From a virus: 20,644 nt of DNA. Each line of letters begins with the position of its first letter. The stretch's first letter is position 1. The translations under genes were made by a program, and so were the position numbers. Positions 4,548-15,280 of the stretch are shown piece by piece. The notes beneath the pieces were generated by a model. It saw only the letters and a list, made by a program, of their open reading frames with translations. It made no database searches and was not told the origin of the DNA. The stretch is taken from positions 1 to 20,644 of IMG/VR virus record IMGVR_UViG_3300048536_000617; one strand, 5' to 3'.

Positions 4548-6788
4548 TTAGAAAAATCCTCCAATAGTTATGTAATAAGCTTGTCCAACAACAAGGTCAT
4601 TAAAGCTGCGACCGTGCGACGAAGATAGATTATATTCCATGTGATTGTTGTAGTTCCAGCGGAAACCATCAACTCGAATCTGCCTCATCATTTGCCACTT
4701 ATTGTCTTTTTCGTTGTATTTCCATATAGTACCAAAAGGGCCATATTGCGTACTAAGAAATTGGGTATCTGGAAATAGATTATCACCTAAATCTATATTA
4801 TTGTCAGTCTTAAAGCTAATCCGCAGATAATCTCCCGACTTATAAAATCCTCCGTCTTCTGGCTCTTTTGCACCGTCAATTGCCCCGAGCCACCGCCAAG
4901 CTAGCCTTGCTGGACCTGGTAATAGGCCCATTTGGTCAACATATTTTTTAGTTACTAAATCCGAATCATCTTCGGGAGTATAGTCAATTTCCCTGCCTCC
5001 GGCTCTGATGCGACCGTGATTATGGACTCGAAGAATTTCATGACCCCTGGCATTCGTAACTGCAAAGACAGTTCCCTTGCTTTCGGATGGCAGATTTTTA
5101 CCTGCAAAAACAACTAAACCAGTTTCTGTATCTTTCTTTGGTTGAATCTGAAGCCCACCATTCATCAAATCACCAGCTTTTCTAACGTAATCGGTTGGGT
5201 CGCCTGACTTCATCTCGAAGACCTTAAATCGACCCAGCCCGCTAGGTGCGCCGGTTGATTGAATATCGCTAACTGCCACAATGGCAACACCGTCTTCAAT
5301 CTTTGCGTCTTCTGTGATTATGTAAGTGGCATTCCCTTCATCGCCTTCATTGACAATTTCAATGTATTTGTCAGCCGTGTAATCACCAAATCCGTGGGTA
5401 CTGCCATCTGACTCTTCGGTATGAATTGAGATGTGGTCAACTTGACCCCAGCGGCTTACATAAACACTGCCTCCCTCGTCTTCTTTGTTTTCGCAATCAC
5501 CCATTTGGCGGGTGCAAACACTTAGCTTTTCTGGATCACCATCCGCATCCTCAACGCATTTTGCGTATTGATCTTGGCAGTATTCCTTGGTCGCTTTAAC
5601 GCCTAATGCGTATTGACCGACAGTTGGTTTTTCAGTGACGTGCGCCCACTTGCCACGGTCAAATTCCTCCGCAATACCATCGACCTTTTCGTGTAGATCT
5701 TGAAGTTCTGCGTCTTGCCGGTCCTGATCAAGCTGTATATCTAACGCCTTTTCATCTAGCTCGCTTTTGTTCATCGCCACATTGGCGTTGACCTTTAGCA
5801 ACTGCTCATCAATGCTGGCAATAGCCGATTGCACACCGTCCAGGCTTACCGGTGGTGCAGCAGGCACCCATACCGCGCCGTCGTAGACGTACAACGTCAG
5901 GTCATCAGGTGATGTGCAAAACCACAGCTGACCCGCAACACTTGGCGGTCTGGGTACTGCTTCAGACAGCGTCACGCCTGCGCGTGACATTGCATCTAGG
6001 AAATACAGGTTTGCGTCTTCCTGCGTGTCCATTTTCCCAGGGACAGTCGGCAGATCTCTTGCCTCCGCCCTCTTGCGGATTGTTGAACCTCCATTGATTA
6101 ATGGCAGCGTGCGGGTGTTCTGCAGCTCTCCGTTACCGCCACCACCGCCGCCACCGCCACCACCAACAGCAGTTGAAATCCTGGTGTCTTTTACCGGTTG
6201 TCGCAGGTCTGCGATTTTGCTCCAGCCTTGACCTAATTTTTTGTAAAAGCTGAATTCTGCTGAGCTGCAATCAATCCACGAATCACCTTCTTTACCGTCA
6301 TCTTGAGACGGCGGGCGAAACGCCGTGAGCGTTGACGTGCCGTCTTTACCAGCTTTACCCGGCAATCCTGTAGCACCCGTTGCACCCGTCGCACCTGCCG
6401 GGCCAATAACGCGCCCACAATCAATAGAAGTGCCATTCGATAACCCAATAAGCAGACGCCCATCAGGCGTGACAACTCCGGTATCTACAAATGTTCCTGG
6501 CTGTCCATCAAGGCCATTTCGGCCATTAGATCCAGCCACGCCATTCTTGCCTGCGCTTCCTGCAGGGCCAGGATCACCCTTGCCGCCAGTGGCTCCTCTA
6601 TCCCCCTGTTCACCTTTAATCGGGGCAGGTACTTGGATTTCTTGCGTACGTCCATCTTCTAAAACAATCGTGAACGACGTTGGGCTCGATTGATTGATGT
6701 CCCGAATGCCAACACCAGCGGGGCCACGCTCGCCCTTCTGACCTTCTGCCGCCATCGCGGCAAGTTCTAAGAGTTCAGTGGTGTTCAT
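4548..6788 (-). CDS. Collagen-like tail fibre / virion protein
   Basis: A 746-residue structural protein. Collagen-type Gly-X-Y repeats occupy residues about 15-27, 58-99 and 129-150 (for example KGEQGDRGATGGKGDPGPAG and GPAGATGATGATGLPGKAG), followed by a ten-glycine run at 209-218. Such repeats form trimeric rods in phage fibres. The middle (320-375) is helical coiled coil. Residues 440-530 contain a beta domain (HISIHTEESDGSTHGFGDY, YIEIVNEGDEGNATYIIT), then a GDLMNGGLQI stalk motif and KKYVD linker, ending in a probable receptor-binding tip. An unusual Cys-bearing insertion lies near residues 405-435 (CQDQYAKCVEDADGD ... CTRQMGDCENKEDEGG) and may be disulphide- or metal-stabilised. It starts 3 bp after the portal stop. 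Its position between portal and gpF-like genes is atypical for a fibre. Confidence 0.85.
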   Translation of the reverse strand: MNTTELLELAAMAAEGQKGERGPAGVGIRDINQSSPTSFTIVLEDGRTQEIQVPAPIKGEQGDRGATGGKGDPGPAGSAGKNGVAGSNGRNGLDGQPGTFVDTGVVTPDGRLLIGLSNGTSIDCGRVIGPAGATGATGATGLPGKAGKDGTSTLTAFRPPSQDDGKEGDSWIDCSSAEFSFYKKLGQGWSKIADLRQPVKDTRISTAVGGGGGGGGGGNGELQNTRTLPLINGGSTIRKRAEARDLPTVPGKMDTQEDANLYFLDAMSRAGVTLSEAVPRPPSVAGQLWFCTSPDDLTLYVYDGAVWVPAAPPVSLDGVQSAIASIDEQLLKVNANVAMNKSELDEKALDIQLDQDRQDAELQDLHEKVDGIAEEFDRGKWAHVTEKPTVGQYALGVKATKEYCQDQYAKCVEDADGDPEKLSVCTRQMGDCENKEDEGGSVYVSRWGQVDHISIHTEESDGSTHGFGDYTADKYIEIVNEGDEGNATYIITEDAKIEDGVAIVAVSDIQSTGAPSGLGRFKVFEMKSGDPTDYVRKAGDLMNGGLQIQPKKDTETGLVVFAGKNLPSESKGTVFAVTNARGHEILRVHNHGRIRAGGREIDYTPEDDSDLVTKKYVDQMGLLPGPARLAWRWLGAIDGAKEPEDGGFYKSGDYLRISFKTDNNIDLGDNLFPDTQFLSTQYGPFGTIWKYNEKDNKWQMMRQIRVDGFRWNYNNHMEYNLSSSHGRSFNDLVVGQAYYITIGGFF
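6135..6164 (-). repeat. GGN trinucleotide tract encoding ten glycines
   Basis: A GGN codon tract inside the collagen-like fibre gene (plus-strand view: repeated ccgcca/ccg units) encodes Gly209-Gly218. It separates the collagen rod from the following domain and probably acts as a flexible hinge. Tracts like this can change length by slippage in steps of one codon. Confidence 0.8.
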
Positions 6789-12941: not shown

Positions 12942-12973
12942 CCTGTTAACAGGTGCTTGACAGGTGCTATGAT
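12942..12973 (+). promoter_or_regulatory. Early promoter P1 with AGGTGC boxes
   Basis: Best promoter reading: TTAACA (12946-12951), 16-bp spacer, TATGAT (12968-12973). The spacer carries AGGTGCTTGAC and then AGGTGC eleven bases later, so regulator boxes sit between -35 and -10. A perfect 12-bp palindrome, CCTGTTAACAGG (12942-12953), covers the -35. The perfect TTGACA at 12957-12962 has no -10 at normal distance and is read here as part of the box. It drives the HTH membrane gene at 13026. Confidence 0.6.
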
Positions 12974-12984
12974 CCAGGGGTCAG

Positions 12985-13000
12985 GCGCACACCGCTGCGC
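12985..13000 (+). other. 5' leader hairpin of the P1 transcript
   Basis: GCGCA (12985-12989) pairs with TGCGC (12996-13000) around a 6-base loop, starting about 12 bases after the -10. It resembles the leader hairpins at P2-P4 in position but lacks the GAGA loop. Confidence 0.42.
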
Positions 13001-13025
13001 GGACAAAATCATTCACAACTGAACA

Positions 13026-13208
13026 ATGACCTGCACCTTTGCTTGGGTTGCAGCTCTCCTGCTGCTCCCATTGATCATTCTCTGGAGGCTCAGCCTCTCA
13101 CCACAGCAAAACGCCAAACGCTTACGAGCCGCTGGCCACACCTACAAATCAATCGCTTCAGCCCTCAACGTTTCACCAACCACCGCTCGCCGGTGGGCTC
13201 TTGCCTGA
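13026..13208 (+). CDS. Membrane-anchored helix-turn-helix protein
   Basis: A 60-residue protein with two parts: a hydrophobic helix at residues about 4-21 (TFAWVAALLLLPLIILWRL) and a compact HTH at 26-60 (PQQNAKRLRAAGHTYKSIAS then ALNVSPTTARRWALA). The HTH pattern (long first helix, A-G-x-T/S-Y-x-S-I-A, then L-N-V-S-x-x-T-A-R-R-W) is that of resolvase/Hin- or transposase-type DNA-binding helices. It would place a DNA-binding head on the cytoplasmic side of the membrane. It is first in the early region, behind P1, with a leader lacking a Shine-Dalgarno. It may tether phage DNA or act as an early regulator, and both roles are inference. Confidence 0.75.
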   Translation: MTCTFAWVAALLLLPLIILWRLSLSPQQNAKRLRAAGHTYKSIASALNVSPTTARRWALA

Positions 13209-13439
13209 GGGATGAATTGAAAGAACCTGCAAATTTGCGCGTTCTTTTCTTTGCCTTTTGCGTTCAAGAAATCTGAGCCACGCTTGTTTTGATCGTTTGG
13301 ATCGTTTAGGGCGCTTTCTTCTCTGCTGCTCCCCCGCGTGGCCGCCTGACGTCCCAGAGTTAAGGCAGCAGAACGACAAAGCCTGGGGATAGTTGCCAGA
13401 ACTATCAGCGGGGCCAGGGGGAAGCCTTGTCAGTTTCAT
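13173..13439 (-). CDS. Possible small basic protein downstream of the RHH-like gene
   Basis: An 88-residue frame whose ATG overlaps the stop of the 64-aa gene at 13436-13630 (ATGA). The middle is strongly basic (EQQRRKRPKRSKRSKQAWLR, FLERKRQRKERANLQ), and the ends are Pro/Ser/Gly-rich and less protein-like. Its last 36 bases are antisense to the HTH membrane gene. The coupled start and basic core favour a real gene, while odd end composition argues against it. If it is not a gene, 13209-13435 is otherwise empty of recognised features. Confidence 0.4.
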   Translation of the reverse strand: MKLTRLPPGPADSSGNYPQALSFCCLNSGTSGGHAGEQQRRKRPKRSKRSKQAWLRFLERKRQRKERANLQVLSIHPSGKSPPASGGW

Positions 13440-13630
13440 GGGAGCTTGATTTGGCCATTCGCAATCGCATCCATGAGTTGACCGGAAGCGCCTAAACGTT
13501 CGCCGCCTTTGCCCATGTAATAAAAGCCACGCTCAAGAGCTATGGCCCCGAGTTTGTCTGGAGTGTCGTTATTAACGCGAACAGCAAAGACGCGTCGGCC
13601 TGTGGGTGTGCCGTCTATTCGTTGAGTCAT
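13436..13630 (-). CDS. Ribbon-helix-helix-like small protein, candidate repressor
   Basis: A 64-residue protein. After MTQRIDGTPTGRR comes a strand (VFAVRVNND), a helix (TPDKLGAIALERG), a Gly-rich turn (FYYMGKGGERLG) and a second helix (ASGQLMDAIANGQIKLP). This strand-helix-helix order, with the second helix preceded by a small-residue cap, fits an Arc/CopG-type ribbon-helix-helix fold with a longer turn than usual. Such proteins bind DNA as dimers on short repeated half-sites. The gene lies on the minus strand within the early region and is driven by a promoter (13678-13651) that overlaps early promoter P3 and contains the AGGTG repeats, so autoregulation and control of the early units is a reasonable hypothesis. 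Sequence support for the fold is by eye only. Confidence 0.68.
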   Translation of the reverse strand: MTQRIDGTPTGRRVFAVRVNNDTPDKLGAIALERGFYYMGKGGERLGASGQLMDAIANGQIKLP

Positions 13631-13650: not shown

Positions 13651-13678
13651 ACTATAGGTGCTTGACAGGTGAAGTCAA
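13651..13678 (-). promoter_or_regulatory. Minus-strand promoter of the RHH-like gene, overlapping P3
   Basis: On the minus strand TTGACT (13678-13673), a 16-bp spacer and TATAGT (13656-13651) form a near-consensus promoter. It points to the ATG at 13630 with a leader of about 14 bases. The spacer contains ACCTGTCAAGCACCT, the reverse view of the AGGTG boxes, so one set of boxes can control both directions. Confidence 0.68.
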
Positions 13679-13689
13679 GGTGCTATCGT
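13656..13689 (+). promoter_or_regulatory. Early promoter P3 with three phased AGGTG boxes
   Basis: TTGACA (13662-13667), 16-bp spacer, TATCGT (13684-13689). AGGTG begins at 13656, 13667 and 13678, exactly 11 bp apart (AGGTGCTTGAC, AGGTGAAGTCA, AGGTGCTATCG). The expected start, about 7 bases after the -10, falls at 13696, at the foot of the leader hairpin. It drives the HNH-like gene. Confidence 0.68.
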
Positions 13690-13696
13690 ATGGACG

Positions 13697-13710
13697 GGCC
13701 GGAGACGGCC
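13697..13710 (+). other. 5'-terminal GAGA hairpin of the P3 transcript
   Basis: GGCCG (13697-13701), loop GAGA (13702-13705), CGGCC (13706-13710): a perfect 5-bp stem with a GNRA tetraloop, starting at the predicted +1. The ATG of the HNH-like gene follows 9 bases after the stem. Confidence 0.65.
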
Positions 13711-13719
13711 ATCAACCTC

Positions 13720-14145
13720 ATGTCCTCAATGCCATTGGTTTCAATGCCTAGATCACCAGAAGGGCGTCTTCGCCATCTGCAAAAGCAACGCGAGGCTTAT
13801 CACCTTGCAAAGCAAGATCCAAACTGGTTGGAGCTAAACCGTGAAAAGTGGGGTCAAAAACAACAACGCCGAAGGGCTGACCCTGCTCGATTAGAGCAAA
13901 TGAGAGCGAAAGACAGAGAACGCAGAAAGGCCCGTTTAGCTGATCCTGTTGAACGTCAAAAGATTGACGCCAGAGGAATGATAAATAAGCGGGCCAAGCG
14001 CAAGACCTTCCCTAGCCCGGGGCTTTTCGTCTGCTGCGACTGCCAGTCAGCAAAAGCCGTCGAATACCACCATGAAACCTATGAATTGTGGTGGGGTGTT
14101 GAGGCTTTATGCCGTGAATGCCATGAGAGAAGGCATCACCCGTAG
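13720..14145 (+). CDS. HNH-like zinc-binding protein
   Basis: A 141-residue protein from ATG 13720. Residues 10-100 are highly basic helices (RHLQKQREAYHLAKQDPNW, LNREKWGQKQQRRRADPARL). The C-terminal module at 101-141 is an HNH/zinc-finger unit: C105/C106-x-C108 (FVCCDCQSAKAVEYHHETY), a double histidine at 117-118, then C131-x2-C134-H (EALCRECHERRHHP). In the HNH family, the paired CxxC motifs bind structural zinc and the HH acts in DNA cleavage. Whether catalysis is retained is unknown. It may be a free-standing HNH nuclease or a DNA-binding protein. A longer frame back to GTG 13669 would start inside promoter P3, so it is rejected. Confidence 0.75.
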   Translation: MSSMPLVSMPRSPEGRLRHLQKQREAYHLAKQDPNWLELNREKWGQKQQRRRADPARLEQMRAKDRERRKARLADPVERQKIDARGMINKRAKRKTFPSPGLFVCCDCQSAKAVEYHHETYELWWGVEALCRECHERRHHP

Positions 14146-14293
14146 TCTCTTAGCGCCGGGGATCCTGCAATACAACACGCGGTTCCGCGAAATACAGGGC
14201 GATGAAGTGATCCAAAGATTGAGAGGCATTGCTCTTGAGGGTCTTTGGGGATTGTTGATCGACCCCCCGGCAGCTACCACCCCCTTTTCTTAT

Positions 14294-14329
14294 AGGTGCT
14301 TGACACCTGTCGCGTAGGTGTGCAATACT
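14294..14329 (+). promoter_or_regulatory. Early promoter P2 with AGGTGC boxes
   Basis: TTGACA (14300-14305), 18-bp spacer, AATACT (14324-14329). Boxes: AGGTGC at 14294, the inverted form ACCTG at 14305 and AGGTG at 14316, again in 11-bp steps. The -10 and start region (ATACTTTGTGCAT) is identical over 13 bases to P4. It drives the 57-aa gene at 14374. The 148 bp between the HNH-like stop and this promoter holds no gene I can support. Confidence 0.68.
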
Positions 14330-14337
14330 TTGTGCAT

Positions 14338-14351
14338 GGCCAGAGATGGCC
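14338..14351 (+). other. 5'-terminal GAGA hairpin of the P2 transcript
   Basis: GGCCA (14338-14342), loop GAGA (14343-14346), TGGCC (14347-14351), beginning about 9 bases after the -10. The stem differs from those of P3 and P4 at paired positions while the loop is the same. Confidence 0.68.
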
Positions 14352-14373
14352 GCCCCCCTCGCTTCCAAATCCA

Positions 14374-14547
14374 ATGACGATCAACGACACCAATTCTTTT
14401 GACAAAGGCGAGCTTGCCTACGTCGCTTTACAGGCCATCGAACAATTCGTTGGCGAGCGTGGCTACAAGCTCGGCTTTGGTTCTGATGACGGAATCCATG
14501 AGGCCATCTGGGACGCTCTGGGCTACGTCGAAATCGACCCCGCCTGA
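14374..14547 (+). CDS. Small acidic protein (57 aa), paralogue of 15280-15459
   Basis: A 57-residue protein (MTINDTNSFDKGELAYVALQ, AIEQFVGERGYKLGFGSDDG, IHEAIWDALGYVEIDPA). It aligns along its length with the 59-aa protein at 15280-15459: K-x-E-L/I-x4-A-x2-A-I, a central G-Y, then a D before I/V-x2-A-I-x-D-x-L and E-I-x-P at the end. Both look like two helices with a short link. It is a monocistronic unit behind P2, with a leader lacking a Shine-Dalgarno, followed by a terminator hairpin. Function unknown. The earlier in-frame ATG at 14296 lies in the promoter and is rejected. Confidence 0.78.
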   Translation: MTINDTNSFDKGELAYVALQAIEQFVGERGYKLGFGSDDGIHEAIWDALGYVEIDPA

Positions 14548-14553
14548 TCGCCT

Positions 14554-14581
14554 GGGGCTTCGGCCCCGCCACCCCTTTTTT
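14554..14581 (+). terminator. TTCG hairpin terminator after the 57-aa gene
   Basis: GGGGC (14554-14558), loop TTCG (14559-14562), GCCCC (14563-14567): a perfect stem with an extra-stable tetraloop, then 8 bases and six T (14576-14581). The gap before the T-run is longer than ideal, so termination may be partial. It separates the P2 unit from promoter P4. Confidence 0.55.
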
Positions 14582-14586
14582 AAACT

Positions 14587-14621
14587 AGGTGCTTGACACC
14601 TGATCGACACCATGTCATACT
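14587..14621 (+). promoter_or_regulatory. Early promoter P4 with AGGTGC boxes
   Basis: TTGACA (14593-14598), 17-bp spacer, CATACT (14616-14621). AGGTGC begins at 14587, ACCTG at 14598 and ACCATG at 14609, keeping the 11-bp step, the last box degenerate. The expected start is 14628, the first base of the leader hairpin. It drives the 62-aa gene and probably the chain of genes after it. Confidence 0.7.
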
Positions 14622-14627
14622 TTGTGC

Positions 14628-14643
14628 ATCGGAGAGATCCGAT
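14628..14643 (+). other. 5'-terminal GAGA hairpin of the P4 transcript
   Basis: ATCGGA (14628-14633), loop GAGA (14634-14637), TCCGAT (14638-14643): a perfect 6-bp stem located at the predicted +1. A 20-base unstructured A/C-rich stretch links it to the ATG at 14664. Confidence 0.7.
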
Positions 14644-14663: not shown

Positions 14664-14852
14664 ATGCTTGACCTTTCCACCATTCAAGTCAGCTCCACCA
14701 TTTACCGATACGAATCCAAAGTTCGCGCTGAAAAGTCTCTTGCCTTGTGGGTTGAAACTGCCTGCCCCGGCGAAACATTCGATCTGTTTGACAATGGCCG
14801 TGGCTACGTGGTCCGCATGTTTGAAGACGGCGAATTTGTCTCCACCGTTTGA
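14664..14852 (+). CDS. Small hypothetical protein (62 aa)
   Basis: A 62-residue protein (MLDLSTIQVSSTIYRYESKV, RAEKSLALWVETACPGETFD, LFDNGRGYVVRMFEDGEFVS). It looks like a small alpha/beta fold: strand, helix, then a beta-hairpin with a D-N-G-R-G turn and V-V-x-M-F-E-D-G. It is the first gene behind P4, and its leader has no Shine-Dalgarno. No family recognised. Confidence 0.75.
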   Translation: MLDLSTIQVSSTIYRYESKVRAEKSLALWVETACPGETFDLFDNGRGYVVRMFEDGEFVSTV

Positions 14853-14860
14853 TCACCACC

Positions 14861-14876
14861 GCCCCCGAGAGGGGGC
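14861..14876 (+). other. GAGA-loop hairpin between two early genes
   Basis: GCCCCC (14861-14866), loop GAGA (14867-14870), GGGGGC (14871-14876). It has no T-run after it, so it is unlikely to terminate. It lies 26 bases before the ATG of the exported-protein gene and has the same loop as the leader hairpins, so it may mark a processed 5' end or be the same kind of element. Confidence 0.58.
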
Positions 14877-14902: not shown

Positions 14903-15280
14903 ATGAAACTTTTAACCGCATTTGCAGCCATCACCTTCATCGCTGCTCCTGCACAAGCCCAGGTTTACGAGGTTTACAACGGCGACCTTTACACCCGTTG
15001 CCACTTCACCGGCTCTAGCACTTTCTGCAAGCACGGAGACGCCGCACGCAGCGAGCGCGACCGCACCAAGCTTGCCGAAGCTTGCGAGGCAAAAGCAAAA
15101 GCTGCCCACGTTGAAAAATATGGGCACTACACCGTTCTCATGCGTGGCACGCACGTCGTTGGCAAACACCACTCTTCATTTCTGAAAACTCTTGGTCATC
15201 CAGAAGTTTTCTGGAATGACGCAGCCCATGCCGAATACAAGGCAGCTACACAAGCATGTTTCACCGCTCAAGGTTTCTGA
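14903..15280 (+). CDS. Exported protein with signal peptide
   Basis: A 125-residue protein from ATG 14903. Residues 1-20 (MKLLTAFAAITFIAAPAQAQ) are a classic signal peptide with Lys, a hydrophobic core and an Ala-x-Ala cut site, so the mature protein starts near residue 20. The mature part has four cysteines: two in a C-x8-C pair (RCHFTGSSTFCKHG), one in EACEAKAKAA and one near the end (ATQACFTAQGF), enough for two disulphides in the periplasm. A phage early exported protein could act in the host envelope, for example on entry exclusion or surface change, but nothing in the sequence fixes this. Its stop overlaps the next start (TGATG). The upstream frame to 14849 includes the GAGA hairpin and is rejected. 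Confidence 0.78.
   Translation: MKLLTAFAAITFIAAPAQAQVYEVYNGDLYTRCHFTGSSTFCKHGDAARSERDRTKLAEACEAKAKAAHVEKYGHYTVLMRGTHVVGKHHSSFLKTLGHPEVFWNDAAHAEYKAATQACFTAQGF

Follow-up and report, generated by a model that had tools for sequence, protein, structure and literature searches.

Many predicted transcripts of a likely cyanophage and of its relatives begin with a short hairpin that differs in sequence from one transcript to the next while its stem stays paired, and this hairpin is very likely a real RNA element. By analogy with known leaders, its likeliest role, to which we give about an even chance, is that of a 5'-terminal stem-loop that would shield the mRNA from the cyanobacterial nucleases RNase E and RNase J. 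The DNA analysed, hereafter called the window, is the 20,644-base virus record IMGVR_UViG_3300048536_000617 in its full length.

The minus strand of the window carries terminase, portal and head genes, and the plus strand carries RepA-like, exonuclease and RusA-like genes. In a search with the terminase (909 records in total), the top matches among cultured phages were KBS-S-2A and S-H1 (Synechococcus WH7803) with 41% identity, closely followed by enterobacterial phages with 40%. The replication protein, compared with 50,697 phage records, gave four matches, all of them to S-CBS3 or S-CBS1, which are phages of estuarine Synechococcus (33% identity). A cyanobacterial host is therefore likely, and the phage and its relatives probably infect picocyanobacteria. 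Two scans of bacterial genome contigs with terminase or RepA turned up no prophage relative, and ARAGORN detected no tRNA genes in the early region of the window or in four relatives; the label "early" refers to gene position only.

The features concerned are listed below. The promoters are predicted by consensus match only and the genes are ORFs; the P1 hairpin was recognised in an RNA fold, and those of P2, P3 and P4 both in the sequence and in RNA folds.

12946..12973, plus strand: P1, predicted promoter TTAACA-16-TATGAT
12980..13004, plus strand: P1 hairpin of 3 bp, internal loop AG/G, 5 bp and loop CACCGC
13026..13208, plus strand: first gene after P1, 60-aa protein with hydrophobic start and helix-turn-helix-like end
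13662..13689, plus strand: P3, predicted promoter TTGACA-16-TATCGT
13697..13710, plus strand: P3 hairpin GGCCG-GAGA-CGGCC
13720..14145, plus strand: HNH-type endonuclease-like ORF after P3, with a 9-nt leader
14300..14329, plus strand: P2, predicted promoter TTGACA-18-AATACT
14338..14351, plus strand: P2 hairpin GGCCA-GAGA-TGGCC
14374..14547, plus strand: 57-aa ORF after P2, with relatives in contigs L003 and L004
14593..14621, plus strand: P4, predicted promoter TTGACA-17-CATACT
14628..14643, plus strand: P4 hairpin ATCGGA-GAGA-TCCGAT
14664..14852, plus strand: 62-aa ORF after P4
14861..14876, plus strand: intercistronic hairpin GCCCCC-GAGA-GGGGGC without predicted promoter upstream (fold of -14.5 kcal/mol, z -3.00)
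14903..15280, plus strand: 125-aa ORF with signal-peptide-like start, 26 nt past the intercistronic hairpin

The sequence AGGTGCTTGACA is common to the four promoters. The -10 boxes of P3, P2 and P4 end at positions 13689, 14329 and 14621, and the stems begin 7, 7-8 and 6 nt later, respectively; an extra U-G pair (14337/14352) is possible in the P2 stem. The P1 hairpin starts 6 nt past its -10 box. As a general rule, +1 is the seventh nucleotide after the -10 box, and on this assumption the P3, P2 and P4 stems are located at about +1 to +3; all start sites used here are predictions. RNA folds of hairpin plus leader amounted to -10.7, -9.2 and -6.8 kcal/mol for P3, P2 and P4 (z -2.49, -1.02 and -1.58) and consisted of exactly these stems, with the remainder single-stranded, although several folds were no better than those of shuffled sequences (z -1.02 for P2 and -0.65 for L008:8338). 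A shorter stretch at P1 (12981-13025) folds partly differently. Coordinates and folds thus bear out the first-pass annotation, which had placed perfect stems of 5-6 bp closed by GAGA at the predicted +1 of P3, P2 and P4. The region 13669-14145, which includes the ORF after P3, matches phrog_2340 (E 5.4e-7), and homologues of the 60-aa P1-gene protein were found in 23 viral loci.

Several other elements were considered in the same region. A U-run directly after the stem is absent at P2, P3, P4 and 14861, where a terminator scan found nothing either; these four hairpins thus lack the U-run of an intrinsic terminator or attenuator. Rfam 15 yielded no family at threshold in the window (one sub-threshold match elsewhere in it, to sR3, scored 18 vs 41 bits), and in six relatives none reached the gathering score. 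A hairpin before a late gene near position 1434 on the minus strand was dropped, since its leader prefers another fold. A predicted minus-strand promoter (13678-13651; ORF 13436-13630) overlaps P3 on the opposite strand and has no hairpin downstream. The inverted repeat AGGTG-CTTGA-CACCT, present at 14294-14308 and 14587-14601, overlaps the -35 boxes of P2 and P4 and is a candidate operator at which a regulator could bind; in its place, direct AGGTG repeats are present at P1 and P3.

Within one phage, all stems are different (4/4 in the window, 4/4 in contig G002 and 3/3 in G009, where two of the three contain a bulge or mismatch). The closing pair, for example, is A-U at P2 and G-C at P3. The homologous leaders of P1 and L149 (52% protein identity) fold alike: two of the eight P1 pairs are changed on both sides and six are identical, as are the loop and the internal loop, and L149 has one extra outer pair. 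The differing stems within a phage and the compensatory changes between P1 and L149 indicate that pairing rather than sequence is retained. In an alignment of 13 distinct rows (A2), 65 of 65 cells are paired, 36 of them with both sides changed, a result with some circularity, since most cores had been selected by their pairing. The earlier proposal that the stems differ yet pair by compensatory change is upheld by the P1/L149 comparison and by the recurrence of hairpins at the same place in related phages. The opposite pattern was observed in L031 (2113, 2436) and L032 (696, 1431), where hairpins preceding different genes have the constant stem CGGGGCC/GGCCCCG and a triloop that varies (TAG, CAG, CAG and CAT, respectively).

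The frequency of such hairpins was determined in relatives drawn by terminase and by the 60-aa P1 protein, with promoters predicted without regard to hairpins. Distinct promoters in related contigs were counted when they scored at least 9 of 12, lay outside ORFs of at least 120 aa and had an ORF downstream, and a hairpin was considered to be at the start when the 5' base of its stem lay 3-11 nt past the -10 box. By these rules, 18 of 39 intergenic promoters are followed by a hairpin at the predicted start, although the contigs are kin and the counts are therefore not independent events. Windows of the same size displaced by +25, +40, -80 and -110 contained 1, 2, 1 and 3 hairpins for the same 39 promoters, and when the letters of the 45 nt downstream of the -10 box were shuffled 200 times, the mean was 1.44 and the maximum 7. 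Among promoters scoring at least 10, the hairpin was present in 10 of 14, vs 0, 1, 0 and 1 in the displaced windows. The commonest stem start in the set of 39 is 7 nt past the -10 box. The terminase relatives and the window account for 14 hairpins at 27 promoters, 8 with a GNRA loop, and the P1-protein relatives together with S-CBS1 and S-CBS3 for 4 at 12 promoters, none with GNRA; the sample drawn by the P1 protein alone gave 4 of 11, vs 0, 0, 0 and 1 in displaced windows. The other 21 of the 39 predicted promoters are without a start hairpin, and many of these may be false promoters.

Certain choices affect these counts. Leaving out promoters that overlap ORFs of at least 120 aa drops two G002 hairpins and also P3, whose promoter is overlapped by a 158-codon ORF, and the exclusion of ATGs less than 22 nt from the -10 box favours leaders with room for a hairpin. 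L150 was kept among the 18 although its late-gene hairpin (L150:9333) was dropped as evidence, as the leader folds otherwise, and the match in L137/L138, with AGAGA within the loop, is still counted and is probably due to chance.

A search for the promoter pattern only returned 91 viral stretches, which left 89 background contigs after removal of two of the group's own (L065 and L121). In these other viral contigs, a hairpin was present at 22 of 204 predicted starts, none with GNRA, vs 5, 1, 12 and 7 in displaced windows; several of the 22 are one hairpin under shifted -10 boxes, the 21 rows scoring at least 10 representing 15 hairpins in 13 contigs. The hairpin was accordingly rejected as a by-product of the promoter type. 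The excess over the displaced windows means that start hairpins are not confined to this phage group, and they may be more widespread, as judged from L080, L096, L107 and L120. These four have long hairpins at predicted starts, e.g., ATGGTCGGGC-AATAAC-GTTTGGCTAT, and in some of them the hairpin is followed by a Shine-Dalgarno-like stretch. In KBS-S-2A, S-H1 and the first 50,000 bases of S-CBS2 and S-CBS4, a hairpin was found at one of nine predicted promoters, and the one promoter predicted in S-CBS1 has none. When modules of hairpin plus G-poor leader were counted independently of promoters, their density per 10 kb was 2.42 in the window, 3.77 in G002 and 2.48 in background of more than 50% GC. 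The density in the window is no higher than in the GC-rich background, which counts against the protective role proposed here. The GNRA share of the modules, by contrast, was higher than in that background, at 4/5 in the window and 3/9 in G002 vs 4/58.

According to the proposed mechanism, many transcripts would carry, from about +1 to +3 onwards, a hairpin of 5-8 bp, the sequence of which would be free as long as it is paired, followed by a short, G-poor, mostly unpaired leader without a Shine-Dalgarno site and then the ATG. With its nucleotides paired, the 5' end would be out of reach of 5'-end-dependent RNase E and also of the host RNase J, a 5'-3' exonuclease, and the open leader would keep access for ribosomes. 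The GNRA loop would be a frequent stable cap and not the signal itself. Between genes, the hairpins would shield 5' ends that arise by processing, or leave the following leader accessible. Parts of the literature are consistent with such a role. RNase E and RppH are described as requiring 5' ends that are single-stranded, 5' structure as stabilising mRNA, and 5' roadblocks as effective against the RNase J1 of Bacillus (PMC3997798). Cyanobacteria possess RNase E plus the 5'-3' exonuclease RNase J and lack close RppH homologues (PMC10989914), and the E. coli model need therefore not carry over. In Prochlorococcus, phage P-SSP7 raises RNase E, and its transcripts are proposed to be protected by an antisense RNA (PMC9692554). 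In Cupriavidus, a T7 gene 10 stem-loop placed ahead of the ribosome site increased reporter output 1.5-3-fold (PMC6146998). Protection of the RNase E type fits the +1 register and the open leader. The likeness of loops within a phage, described below, is not needed by plain protection and counts against it. Since this likeness and the hairpins between genes fit less well, decay protection is given about an even chance, and a protein that reads the loop is a live rival.

Most hairpins are followed by a short, G-poor, mostly unpaired leader without a Shine-Dalgarno site. The leaders after P2, P3, P4 and 14861 are unpaired in the folds, that of P1 is partly paired, and no purine-rich Shine-Dalgarno stretch is present in those of P2, P3 and P4, as the first-pass annotation had also reported. 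Hairpins are found between genes too, at 14861-14876 in the window and at L130:6660, neither at a predicted start. The hairpin is hence not confined to transcript starts. The same arrangement of hairpin and leader at starts and between genes could mean that the hairpin, about 10-26 nt before the ATG, acts in translation by keeping a leader without Shine-Dalgarno site unfolded or by holding the ribosome. The G-poor, mostly unpaired leaders agree with this, as do the four P1-gene homologues first compared, in which the hairpins differ and a CA-rich stretch such as TTCACAACTCAATCC stays similar before the ATG. However, a role in translation leaves the stem start at the predicted +1 unexplained, the P3 hairpin is only 9 nt before the first ATG, and in the wider set of 23 P1-gene loci, which stops short of the true start for L161-L164 and L169, no clear hairpin is found beside the leader in L153 and L166-L168. 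We regard it as unlikely to be the main role. The hairpin of the P1-gene homologue in G002 looks like a tRNA 3' half. The hairpin at about 5650-5695 on the minus strand of L130 (8558-8607 in L008), which precedes the P1-gene homologue, consists of tRNA 3'-half-like sequence with T arm and acceptor stem; ARAGORN found no tRNA there, and the sequence is perhaps an attachment site.

The loop was claimed earlier to be a constant GNRA loop. GAGA indeed closes the hairpins at P2, P3, P4 and 14861-14876, but the P1 loop is CACCGC, and among the relatives loops are varied, GNRA being present in 8 of the 18 start hairpins of related contigs and in 0 of 4 in the P1-protein-only sample. The GNRA loop was therefore rejected as a general signal. 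Varied loops in homologous leaders, which the same annotation had named as evidence against its reading, were thus found in part. The loops of relatives include GAGA, GCGA, GGGA, GAAA and GGAA, but also ACGA, GCAG, CGCA, ACGCA, AATGA, ATTGA, AAGGTC, triloops and CACCGC. By contig, G001 has AAGGTC, GGGA and GTT, G005 has ACGA, L160 CGCA, L162 ACGCA, L163 and S-CBS3 GCAG, and G009 carries AATGA, AATGA and ATTGA on three stems. In L026, L033 and L034, a GAAA or GGAA hairpin directly follows TATAAT or TATATT and is itself followed by a U-run; these are possible attenuators at the promoter, and subtracting them (3 of the 8 GNRA cases) leaves 15 hairpins at 36 promoters, 5 of them with GNRA.

Loops are nevertheless alike within a phage. 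Identical loops were found in 9 of 24 same-genome pairs vs 14 of 252 between-genome pairs (permutation p 0.0005), as tested on 24 hand-listed hairpins that omit L026, L033, L034, one L032 hairpin, L149, L150, L163 and two S-CBS3 modules. This could reflect recognition of the loop by a phage or host protein, as for lambda N and boxB, controlling antitermination, stability or translation, with a loop proper to each phage on free stems. The four different GAGA stems of the window, the three stems of G009 and the retention of loop and internal loop between P1 and L149 are in line with this. Moreover, one small gene, the proteins of which are 53.7% identical between G002 and G009, has different hairpins at the same place: the promoter hairpin is GTCCC-GAGA-GGGGC in G002, whereas that of G009 is GGGAGGC-AATGA-GCCGCCC and contains one mismatch. 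On the other hand, G001 has three different loops, the L031 and L032 hairpins discussed above keep the stem and vary the loop, and copying of promoters within a phage could produce alike loops too. Lambda boxB in the nut site likewise combines a short stem and a GNRA-like loop and is part of early phage transcripts. It lies behind boxA, further into the transcript, whereas here the stem is at the predicted +1 and loops vary; a lambda nut site fits poorly, as boxA is lacking and only 0-2 nt separate the predicted +1 from the P1-P4 stems. HK022 put RNA, which consists of two neighbouring stem-loops in the leader, does not fit either, since the P2, P3 and P4 leader folds give one hairpin each. 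Loop recognition is, on balance, quite unlikely to be the principal function. A further, rather improbable idea is that each phage tags the first nucleotides of its own messages with a loop specific to that phage on stems of free sequence. Read by a protein of the phage or the host, the tag would distinguish phage from host mRNA during raised decay, and loop and reader would change together.

Among the modules of the window, the relatives, S-CBS1 and S-CBS3, GNRA occurs 11 times on the transcript strand and the complementary TNYC 0 times (6 vs 2 in the background), which argues for an RNA element rather than a DNA operator. Operators can take the form of inverted repeats at promoters, the repeats might also be chance products of GC-rich sequence, and other viral contigs have hairpins at 22 of 204 predicted starts too, above most displaced windows. 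An operator or chance is nevertheless very improbable, as the half-sites vary within a phage, their shared centre lacks symmetry, the repeat over the -35 boxes of P2 and P4 is the better operator candidate, and the 18 of 39 vs displaced windows and shuffles disfavours chance.

As to known 5'-terminal stem-loops, the decay-protecting hairpin proposed here resembles that of T7 gene 10, which Mertens and colleagues reportedly found in 1996 to stabilise mRNA, in being a phage leader with a terminal stem-loop. T7 gene 10 has one leader with a Shine-Dalgarno site and is transcribed by the phage RNA polymerase, whereas here there are many host-type promoters, many stems and no Shine-Dalgarno site, with a putative effect. 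The ompA and papA mRNAs of E. coli are said to carry 5'-terminal stem-loops as well (work attributed to Emory and colleagues, 1992, and to Bricker and Belasco, 1999); as in these, the hairpin is located at the very 5' end, here as predicted, and pairing matters rather than sequence. Unlike these single cellular genes, the architecture is repeated in the phages and also found between genes. It may thus be a variant of the known 5'-terminal stem-loop, judged by an anatomy like that of the T7 gene 10 and ompA leaders; the starts being predicted, membership is unproven. Like the P-SSP7 antisense RNA (PMC9692554), it would be a cyanophage means of keeping mRNA from the host RNase E, acting in cis and not, as that RNA, in trans. 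No description of the pattern was found in searches of open-licence PMC papers, which is weak evidence of novelty.

The cultured phage S-CBS3, the record of which names Synechococcus CB0202 as the host, has CATACT-GGTGACA followed by the hairpin CCGGG-GCAG-CCCGG upstream of gp38, which makes the question testable. On the minus strand of its genome (L143), at 28810, 25856 and 23018, a hairpin and G-poor leader also precede further genes, one with a TTCG loop. Cyanophage mRNA has to survive in hosts equipped with RNase E as well as RNase J, and one cyanophage raises RNase E in its host; a hairpin repeated at +1 would offer a simple solution in cis. Such leaders would also lend themselves to expression in cyanobacteria without a Shine-Dalgarno site.
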